Of a stretch of DNA of 32,897 nucleotides, positions 14,226-16,104 are shown one piece after another. A model generated the notes under the pieces. It searched no databases and had not been told where the DNA came from. It saw nothing but the letters and a program-made list of their open reading frames with translations. The translations under genes and the position numbers were made by a program. The DNA comes from Ruminococcus sp. (GTDB lineage Bacteria; Bacillota; Clostridia; Oscillospirales; Ruminococcaceae). The number at the start of each line of letters is the position of its first letter. Position 1 is the first letter of the stretch. Where the stretch lies: assembly GCA_017624895.1 (NCBI GenBank), contig JAGAMB010000003.1, positions 1 through 32,897 of the forward strand. Reading direction: 5' to 3'.

Positions 14226-14258
14226 AATTCTTAATTCTTCATTCTTAATTCTTAATTA
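14226..14258. repeat. Short AATTCTT tandem repeat
   Basis: About four and a half imperfect 7-base units (AATTCTT, AATTCTTC, ATTCTT, AATTCTT, AATT) lie between the terminator and, overlapping, the TAA stop of the rubrerythrin gene. Simple-sequence arrays of this type are common in intergenic DNA; no function is implied. Confidence 0.6.
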
Positions 14259-14939
14259 ACCAAAGTATCTCTTGAGAAGTCCCTCGAATGCCTTGCCGTG
14301 TCTTGCTTCGTCCTTAGCCATTTCATGCACTGTATCGTGGATAGCGTCGAGGTTAAGCTCCTTTGCTCTCTTAGCAAGATCCAGCTTGCCCTGTGTAGCG
14401 CCGTGTTCAGCAGCAACTCTTGCTGTGAGGTTCTCCTTTGTAGAGGGAGATACAACCTCACCAAGAAGCTCAGCGAACTTAGCAGCGTGTTCAGCTTCCT
14501 CAAAAGCAGCCTTTTCCCAGTAAAGACCGATTTCGGGATAACCCTCTCTGTGAGCAACGCGAGCCATAGCAAGGTACATACCAACCTCAGTACACTCACC
14601 TGCAAAATTTGCTCTGAGTCCTTCAAGGATCTCCTCGTCAGTTACAGCCTTAGCAACGCCTACTTCGTGTTCGCAAGCGAATACGAGATTTCCCTCATCC
14701 TTCTTCTCGATGAACTTCTCACCGGGAACGCCGCACTGTGGGCATTTATCGGGAGCAGATGTACCCTCGTGAACATAGCCGCAAACTGGGCATACGTACT
14801 TGGAAACAGTAGCCTCAGCAGGTGCCTCAGCCTTTTCCTCAACGAAATCGGAAGCGGGAACACCGCAGAGAGGACAAACTTCGGGAGCAGCGTCGCCTTC
14901 GTGAACATAACCGCAAACTGAACATACATATTTAGCCAT
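14256..14939 (-). CDS. Rubrerythrin with two N-terminal rubredoxin-like domains
   Basis: 227 residues from ATG at 14939-14937, with GGAGG 8 bases upstream. Two copies of a short rubredoxin-like iron site come first: [10 protein letters not shown]...CPLCGVP (about 6-31) and [10 protein letters not shown]...CPQCGVP (about 50-75), joined by an Ala/Glu linker. A ferritin-like diiron four-helix domain follows, with ligand regions [28 protein letters not shown] and [11 protein letters not shown]. Having rubredoxin before the diiron domain is the reverse-rubrerythrin order. Such proteins reduce peroxide and oxygen in anaerobes; two electron-transfer sites may speed NAD(P)H or rubredoxin-linked reduction. 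It lies 49 bases downstream of the NrdD-like gene and is probably co-transcribed. Confidence 0.92.
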
Positions 14940-14988
14940 AATAAAGACCTCCAAAAATTAAATTTATATTTTTGCTTGTTTAAGCATA

Positions 14989-15252
14989 CTATACTGTGTG
15001 TTTGATTCTCTCTCGTTCTTCGGCGCGTTTGCCGTTGTTGAATCGGTCGAGAGTGCCGACGAGATAGCCTGTAATACGGCGAACTCTGTCAAAAGGAATG
15101 TCGGCAAATTCAAATTTAAGGTCAGCGTAATCGCCATCAAGGGAAACTGTCATTTCCTTAATTATTCTATCGGGATATTTTTCAGCTCCATAGGCAAGAT
15201 AAGCGTTGATTTCCTGTTGTGATATTTTTTCTCCGATAACATTGACTTTCAT
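14989..15252 (-). CDS. Stand-alone NrdD glycyl-radical-region-like protein
   Basis: 87 residues, ATG preceded by AGGAGGT. The C-terminal half (residues 56-85, RVRRITGYLVGTLDRFNNGK onward to RIKH) resembles the end of class III anaerobic ribonucleotide reductase NrdD, which has an RV.GYL glycyl-radical motif followed by FN.GK..E...R.KH. Gly62 is the candidate radical glycine. The N-terminal half (IGEKISQQEINAYLAYG, DGDYADL) is not recognised, and the protein has no cysteine, so the zinc site that precedes the motif in full NrdD is missing. Many databases label such proteins as anaerobic reductase from this similarity alone. A role as a replaceable radical domain, like YfiD/GrcA for pyruvate formate-lyase, is an inference. 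It is upstream of rubrerythrin and divergent from a Crp/Fnr gene. Confidence 0.75.
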   Translation of the reverse strand: MKVNVIGEKISQQEINAYLAYGAEKYPDRIIKEMTVSLDGDYADLKFEFADIPFDRVRRITGYLVGTLDRFNNGKRAEERERIKHTV

Positions 15253-15355: not shown

Positions 15356-15384
15356 TTGACCTTTTCTGTAATATATTGTATCAT
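15356..15384 (+). promoter_or_regulatory. Promoter of the Crp/Fnr-type gene
   Basis: TTGACC (15356-15361), 17-base spacer, TATCAT (15379-15384). It lies within the longest open frame, which supports the downstream TTG start at 15433. Confidence 0.75.
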
Positions 15385-15402
15385 AGTATTCAAGAAAAAT
15401 CT

Positions 15403-15416
15403 GTTGCAATTGCAAC
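15403..15416 (+). promoter_or_regulatory. Perfect palindrome GTTGCAATTGCAAC in the leader
   Basis: A 14-base perfect dyad lies about 12 bases after the expected transcript start and just before AAGGAGGG. It is the kind of symmetric site a Crp/Fnr dimer could bind, so autoregulation is likely but unproven. Confidence 0.6.
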
Positions 15417-15432: not shown

Positions 15433-16104
15433 TTGCCGGAACATAATATACTTTTTAAAGGAATTGACGACTATGATTGCCAGAGAATGTACAAGTGCTT
15501 TAACATGGAAGTAAAAAAATTCAGAGCAGGCAGCTGTATAAGCGACTATTCAAATCAAGGTGATAAAATTGGTATAATAGTAAAAGGTAGTGCAGATGTT
15601 GTGCGCTATGATGTGAACGGTGTGCGTACAATAATAGAAACACTCGGAGAACAAGGGATTTTCGGGGAGTATTTTACGTATCCGCTGTCGGGCAGAAATT
15701 ATATTGAGGTGGTGGCAGGAAAGGACTGCGAAATACTCTATGTACGCCGTTCAGAGCTGTTAAAACGCTGTGAAAATGCCTGTTCCTGCCATTCAAAGGT
15801 AGTTGAGAATATGCTGGAGCTTATGACAGAAAAGGCGGTATCACTAAGTGAGCGTGTGGAAGTACTGAGTCAGCGGACGATTGAAAGCAAGCTTATCAGT
15901 TTTCTGAAAATTACCGAGGATAAAACCGTTAAGGGTAAAACTCCGCAGATACCATTTTCCACAACGGTACTTTCGGATTATCTCTGTGTAAACCGCAGCG
16001 CATTGCAAAGGGAGATAGCAAAGCTGAAAAAATCGGGAGTTCTTACCATCTCAAAGCGTAAATTCAAGCTGAAAATCAATCCTGAAAATGAATTTGACAT
16101 ATAA
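15433..16104 (+). CDS. Crp/Fnr-family transcription regulator
   Basis: 223 residues from a TTG at 15433, 8 bases after AAGGAGGG; a GTG at 15322 is rejected because it precedes the promoter and lacks a ribosome site. A cyclic-nucleotide-binding-like fold (IGIIVKGSADVV, GEQGIFGEYF) leads to a long dimer helix (ENMLELMTEKAVSLSERVEV) and a C-terminal winged helix (VLSDYLCVNRSALQREIAKL). There is no N-terminal cysteine cluster, so it is not a classic iron-sulphur Fnr. A C-x3-C-x-C group before the dimer helix (CENACSC) could sense redox. The ligand is unknown. It is divergent from the NrdD-like/rubrerythrin genes, its most likely targets besides itself. Confidence 0.88.
   Translation: MPEHNILFKGIDDYDCQRMYKCFNMEVKKFRAGSCISDYSNQGDKIGIIVKGSADVVRYDVNGVRTIIETLGEQGIFGEYFTYPLSGRNYIEVVAGKDCEILYVRRSELLKRCENACSCHSKVVENMLELMTEKAVSLSERVEVLSQRTIESKLISFLKITEDKTVKGKTPQIPFSTTVLSDYLCVNRSALQREIAKLKKSGVLTISKRKFKLKINPENEFDI

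Follow-up and report, generated by a model that had tools for sequence, protein, structure and literature searches.

A stand-alone NrdD-type glycyl-radical protein in Ruminococcus, probably an exchangeable domain of class III ribonucleotide reductase

A short gene of gut Ruminococcus encodes a protein that carries, behind an N-terminal domain of its own, a tail of the kind found at the C-terminus of NrdD, the class III ribonucleotide reductase (RNR). The protein very likely works with NrdD and NrdG. We consider it probable that it is an exchangeable glycyl-radical domain of class III RNR whose main role in Ruminococcus is the repair of NrdD cut by oxygen. The gene lies in a 32,897-nucleotide stretch of a Ruminococcus sp. 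contig (JAGAMB010000003.1, assembly GCA_017624895.1), the whole of which is called the window here (Table 1). Genomes, loci and families are cited by our own numbers (G, L and f).

Table 1. The small gene, its neighbors and its candidate promoter elements in the window
Feature	Position	Strand	Basis
NrdD-type stand-alone glycyl-radical protein, 87 aa	14989..15252	minus	Pfam, NCBIfam and PDB matches; alignment
227-aa rubrerythrin carrying two rubredoxin-like modules at its N-terminus	14256..14939	minus	PF21349 (two stretches), PF02915
Crp/Fnr-type regulator	15433..16104	plus, divergent	Profile match, conserved cysteines
Palindromic operator candidate GTTGCAATTGCAACAG	15401..15416	minus	Centre 29 bases before TACAAT
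-10-like TACAAT	15375..15380	minus	Fixed spacing from the palindrome

A separate gene for an NrdD-type radical tail

The initial annotation had given the right interval for the gene and no strand; the gene lies on the minus strand, and a plus-strand reading of the same interval contains an internal stop. It starts with ATG, closely preceded by AGGAGG as ribosome-binding site. The translation contains zero cysteines and, as previously annotated, both RRITGYL, with Gly62, and RFNNGK..E...RIKH. Residues 1-52 make up the N-domain and residues 53-87 the radical tail, in which Gly62 is the presumed radical residue. The ORF is real, neither a chance frame nor a fragment: 26 congeners have a full-length copy (61-79% identity), and in one more it is cut by a contig end. 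The stretch R58 R59 I60 T61 G62 Y63 L64 V65 G66 is invariant in 48 aligned copies, a set that includes copies from viral contigs but not the early-stopping viral copy L162, and a host copy outside that alignment, L234, keeps the glycine in RRVTGYLAG.

Pfam family PF13597 (NRDD) matched residues 54-85 at profile positions 533-562 of 562, scoring 28.3 bits (cut-off 26.2). The best NCBIfam match, PRK07111 (E 5.3e-11), aligned residues 50-86 with positions 708-744 of 746, and the sole PDB sequence match of the full protein was 8p23 (E 5.8e-6). All of these are NrdD-type, in agreement with the likeness to the NrdD radical segment first suggested from the motifs; the radical loop is recognized in profile comparison by both PF13597 and PRK07111. 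Entry 8p23 is the NrdD of Prevotella copri, whose RITGYLVG loop and following tail align gap-free with the small protein. Its glycyl-radical domain is described, in the available text of PMC11226230, as having a zinc site, a buried radical-glycine loop and a tail that crosses the surface. Unlike this NrdD, the small protein is the product of a separate gene and lacks the zinc cysteines, the ATP-cone and the catalytic barrel. Measured against the NrdD family as a whole, it has the radical glycine loop and the C-terminal tail; the ten-stranded barrel and the active-site and zinc cysteines are absent, and the final 533-562 of the 562 profile positions are all that is covered.

Residues 1-52 make up a separate, conserved domain that has no convincing relative by sequence. 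Pfam gave no match for the N-domain of the window's member, with scattered, weak matches for other members, and the best hit in a PDB sequence search had an E value of only 0.036; we therefore reject a known fold recognizable by sequence. A piece of NrdD was likewise rejected, since comparison gave no match.

Within the genus set, the gene is present in 28 of 36 genomes, among them that of the window (70% complete): 27 at full length and one cut by a contig end. Congeners G026 and G002, at 98-99% completeness, do not have it, and it is therefore not indispensable. Among named loci with the N-domain (the best 80 of 197 relatives), 74 of 80 have Ruminococcus in their title, R. flavefaciens in many cases. 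In a broader sampling, searches detected the N-domain in 31 of 295 order-level and 9 of 293 class-level genomes (the window's own genome counted in both), and the radical glycine is kept in all 19 order-level copies read.

Tail-less NrdD enzymes and detached tails

A class-wide search reached a clostridial family, f56, in which 29 of 36 genomes have the gene. In all 29 carriers the operon order is nrdD, small gene, nrdG, with the NrdD core before and nrdG after; the gene that follows nrdG is presumably nrdR. The adjacent NrdD keeps its tail in 11 of the 29 and is tail-less in the other 18. Tail-less enzymes stop past the zinc site and lack a glycine loop, and a remnant of the pre-glycine strand is often left; one ends in FERIKRITKN, and in others up to about 30 unrelated residues follow. 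In 6 of the 18, about 500 bases separate the core from the small gene. Because these 18 NrdDs have lost their own tails, their radical should come in trans from the small protein, and on these sequences the simplest reading would be that the small-protein family gives its radical glycine to NrdD. Linkage to nrdD and nrdG in every f56 carrier and a tail-less partner in 18 of 29 are features of a subunit acting in trans. Together with the NrdD-only matches of the tail, they leave the NrdD-type partner proposed in the initial annotation well supported. The rescue role proposed alongside it is plausible. Glycyl-radical enzymes are known to be cut at the radical glycine (for pyruvate formate-lyase, PFL, in the accessible part of PMC8683613), and by extension from that scission the f56 cores would end near the presumed oxygen-cut site.

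Another NrdD is encoded elsewhere in the genome in 14 of the 18 tail-less cases. In G625, G628, G632 and G636 (drafts, 88-96% complete) no NrdD besides the tail-less core was detected, and the class I/II RNR family PF02867 was not found in these four. Some related bacteria thus seem to depend on a detached radical tip altogether. In f56 genomes with a tailed NrdD (10 compared), the tails of NrdD and small protein are 0.976 identical within a genome versus 0.910 between genomes, and 0.952 versus 0.889 at the nucleotide level; gene conversion or recent duplication is a possible explanation for such near-identical tails.

Separation of the tail from NrdD extends to genes without the N-domain. In G038, G047, G051 and G058, tail-less NrdD cores are followed by small radical-tail ORFs that lack it, and G047 has a full NrdD besides the split version. 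Loci L042-L045, from the same order, hold natively split NrdDs with a small tail ORF behind the core, nrdG coming next in L042, L044 and L045. These tail ORFs stand alone like the small protein and sit beside a tail-less core, but they lack its N-domain and substitute for a missing tail instead of adding a second one. With natively split NrdDs a tail-less enzyme already exists in nature, and the idea of a radical domain in trans is testable without oxygen.

The tail was matched in 56 of 118 genomes of the order (62 had no match). In 42 of the 56 it lay on a frame no longer than 165 residues, 10 of these 42 having it on a long frame too, and in 14 it lay on a long frame only, a tally that includes frames cut by contig ends. 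Detached radical tails thus look common in the order, and many gut Clostridia may, from the 42 genomes with short-frame tails, have a two-chain class III RNR; we found no report of how common detached NrdD tails are in this order in the open-licence literature. L041 (4084-4371) of G042, a genome that also carries a full NrdD, shows a third type of stand-alone NrdD tail, joined to an N-terminal part that looks unrelated. The class II RNR NrdJa/NrdJb is likewise an RNR in two chains but, as far as the accessible text of PMC9669993 goes, has no glycyl radical, unlike the NrdD-type tail of the small protein. Split phage nrdD genes have been ascribed to introns or inteins, with one case left unexplained (PMC3653736, text available in part).

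An oxygen-linked setting in Ruminococcus

In the window, the rubrerythrin gene follows the small gene on the same strand after 49 bases. Its start was set at an ATG with a Shine-Dalgarno sequence (the ORF listing begins at 14954), and that of the regulator at a TTG behind GGAGGG (listing from 15322). Of the 80 named loci (the best 80 of 197 relatives), 74 have a same-strand rubrerythrin gene 19-170 bases downstream of the small gene, 69 have a divergent Crp/Fnr gene at a distance of 99-446 bases upstream, and 66 have both. Across 71 sequences of the regulator, four cysteine positions are conserved in 71, two in 70 and one in 67; the cysteine set is of the iron-sulfur or redox sensor type, and cluster binding is putative.

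The palindrome GTTGCANNTGCAAC, counted by its core TTGCNNNNGCAA, lies upstream in 69 of 81 regions (the 80 loci and the window). It occurs in none of the 11 named loci without the Crp/Fnr regulator, and the only regulator-bearing locus without it is L072, where the regulator is unusually distant (446 bases). In 66 of the 69 regions its centre lies exactly 29 bases before TACAAT, a spacing that we take to place it near -41.5, the position of a class II activator. In a scan of 22 genus genomes, 16 of them carriers, exact matches were found in 15 genomes and at the small-gene promoter in 14; the exact palindrome was absent from the promoter in carriers G006 and G014, and the six non-carriers had none. 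Six further exact matches lay elsewhere in the scanned genomes, and a reversed control pattern gave 2 matches in 36 genomes searched. In the window alone, a search allowing up to two mismatches gave three matches against 1.8 expected, not above chance; the exact one is that at the promoter. On these counts the regulator looks mostly local.

The oxygen-damage setting noted in the initial annotation holds for Ruminococcus and is mostly missing elsewhere. Order-level loci outside the genus (n = 18, about 1.5 kb on each side) had one rubrerythrin and two Crp/Fnr genes, the latter in L168 and L180 and both divergent, and neither gene was matched in 4 class-level and 29 f56 loci. We therefore reject an oxygen setting common to the entire family, and a repair role rests on Ruminococcus.

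For the partner enzyme, NrdD (TIGR02487) was matched in 57 of 60 relatives at E 1e-3 with small tails counted, and in 51 of 60 over the cut-off. An NrdD besides the small protein was found in 22 of the 28 carrier genomes. Strains with the gene and no NrdD/NrdG had been named at the outset as evidence that would weigh against the proposal. In six carriers neither NrdD nor an over-cut-off NrdG was found (G000, G005, G006, G014, G022 and G029; drafts, 64-95% complete, with G005 at 90%, G006 at 95% and the window's own genome also among the negatives). A full-length NrdD is present in each of the 15 carrier genomes that were traced from named loci.

NrdD retains a radical tail of its own in those Ruminococcus genomes that were read, and the small gene lies apart from nrdDG. 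The two tails correspond: at an N/D site, the small protein matches the NrdD of the same genome in 20 of 22 Ruminococcus genomes (Fisher p 0.0008, uncorrected for kinship), an agreement that may partly reflect kinship. Identity between the tails is 0.924 within a genome and 0.904 between genomes for amino acids, and 0.776 versus 0.751 for nucleotides, both by permutations without kinship control. The two tails of one genome differ at a median pS of 0.75 and pN of 0.05 (22 Ruminococcus genomes). Because synonymous sites are near saturation, recent copying is not the reason for the tail match in Ruminococcus, which argues against recent gene conversion there.

Damage to NrdD should be costly in this genus, since no class I/II RNR was found in the Ruminococcus searched: PF02867 was absent from all 14 genomes (the window's and 13 relatives), with the control detected in 11 of 14. 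The family appeared in one of 24 genomes searched, G058. As none of the 13 Ruminococcus relatives searched showed it, cutting of NrdD by oxygen could bring dNTP synthesis to a halt.

A proposed repair cycle and its alternatives

We propose that oxygen would cut active NrdD at the radical glycine, upon which the Crp/Fnr regulator, its cysteines sensing oxygen or redox stress, would turn the operon on and rubrerythrin would clear peroxide. The small protein would then dock on the cut NrdD core, in which barrel and zinc site are retained, its RRITGYLVG loop would enter the NrdD active site, and NrdG would generate the radical on Gly62. dNTP synthesis could restart in this way without a new 780-residue enzyme. 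We infer the docking, the radical formation, the signal and the repair role itself; for Ruminococcus, where NrdD is intact, rescue is suggested by genomic context and by analogy. More broadly, we lean toward a class III RNR radical domain that acts in trans in different capacities, as an oxygen-controlled spare in Ruminococcus, as an obligate subunit for tail-less NrdD and as cargo of phages. If this is true, a cheap replacement tip would help to explain how strict anaerobes survive air.

The analogy is with GrcA/YfiD of E. coli and Y06I of phage T4, which are described as spare parts of PFL in the accessible text of PMC8683613. As far as that text goes, both resemble the small protein in having an N-terminal half of their own followed by a copy of the enzyme's C-terminal radical segment, in occurring in hosts and phages and in their link to oxygen damage. 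They differ in serving PFL, whereas the tail of the small protein is NrdD-type and its Ruminococcus operon includes rubrerythrin and faces a Crp/Fnr gene. The small protein is, like GrcA, small (87 aa, no cysteine) and stand-alone, with a radical loop and no catalytic core; it lacks the PFL-type Gly_radical domain, NRDD being the sole Pfam family up to E 1. No molecule named YfiD or GrcA was among the PDB matches of the protein or its N-domain. We place it outside the GrcA family and propose, by analogy, that it works as GrcA does. Spare parts had been validated only for PFL and were deemed possible for other enzymes (Andorfer et al. 2021, PMC8683613, in the available text). The open-licence literature, in the text accessible, gave no description of an NrdD spare part or stand-alone NrdD radical subunit, in keeping with the initial impression that such a rescue part is new.

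An alternative hypothesis is that the small protein is a working radical subunit of NrdD and not a repair part, adding or swapping radical domains in Ruminococcus during ordinary anaerobic growth, with the linkage to rubrerythrin and the regulator serving only to time expression. Its membership of the nrd operon in f56, where some NrdDs have no other tail and neither rubrerythrin nor Crp/Fnr is nearby, would fit this. We nonetheless think it unlikely: in Ruminococcus the gene lies apart from nrdDG, next to rubrerythrin and to a regulator of the Crp/Fnr type that is mostly local.

It is less probable still that the protein is a regulator or decoy that, by binding to NrdG or to the active site of NrdD, would lower dNTP synthesis under stress. 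This possibility draws on a second gene with the N-domain, present in 30 of the 36 genus-set genomes (counted by identity, 36-47%), in which Asp replaces the radical Gly in 10 of 10 copies read, showing that the scaffold is viable without a radical. Against it stand the invariant radical motif in the 48 aligned glycine-bearing copies and the 18 adjoining NrdD cores without a tail of their own. The Asp-bearing paralogues (G000:C7:28104-28361, L032; L029, L031 and L034-L040) read RSADYLVN and similar and form one clade of 9 rows with 100/100 support in a 56-row tree; the gene adjoining the paralogue in the four loci shown is presumably rsmA or rsmA-like. Judging from this sister clade, the N-domain probably serves some purpose independent of the radical, and the Asp paralogue may be a regulator that shares the scaffold of the radical protein.

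Service to another glycyl-radical enzyme such as PFL, for which GrcA/YfiD sets the precedent (PMC8683613, text seen in part), is very improbable: Pfam listed no match to the PFL-type Gly_radical family up to E 1, the NrdD-only listing argues against PFL as partner, and the gene lies in nrdD-gene-nrdG operons. A decaying nrdD fragment, as the short, tail-only likeness to NrdD might suggest, is refuted to the point of negligible probability by the protein's own conserved N-domain, the conserved operon and strong purifying selection (median dN/dS over finite pairs of 14 sequences, 0.108 for residues 1-52 and 0.032 for the tail, finite in 23 and 34 of 91 pairs, respectively, with synonymous sites near saturation).

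Copies in phages

A viral collection yielded 15 loci, some of them near-duplicates; the motif is kept in 14, and one stops early. Genes of phage families adjoin several of them: tape measure and head protease in L149, portal and terminase in L155, tape measure in L160, single-strand binding protein in L158 and, by a weak match, baseplate wedge in L153. In a Ruminococcus prophage on a host contig (L033), the neighbors are holin and endolysin. Neither an NrdD core nor NrdG was found in the viral stretches examined. As part of the in-trans reading, phages with the small gene would need the host's only dNTP source.

Some candidate records were set aside. Phage record MT837933 (H3) has a long NrdD frame with its own tail, and the C. 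difficile plasmid record H15 has a whole nrdD with nrdG. MT838827 (L164) is labelled as phage and was rejected as phage evidence, as it has the same neighbor as host locus L169 (f24 genome), which we take to be the gene for S-adenosylmethionine synthetase; S-adenosylmethionine is the cofactor of NrdG.

In the 56-row tree, where columns are few, support is rough and the phage label includes the doubtful L164, phage-labelled copies require 6 label changes, at least 3 of them forced by well-supported branches. Judging from this tree, phages have probably acquired the small gene repeatedly. The early-stopping phage copy, at 5884-6072 of L162, ends just before the radical glycine.
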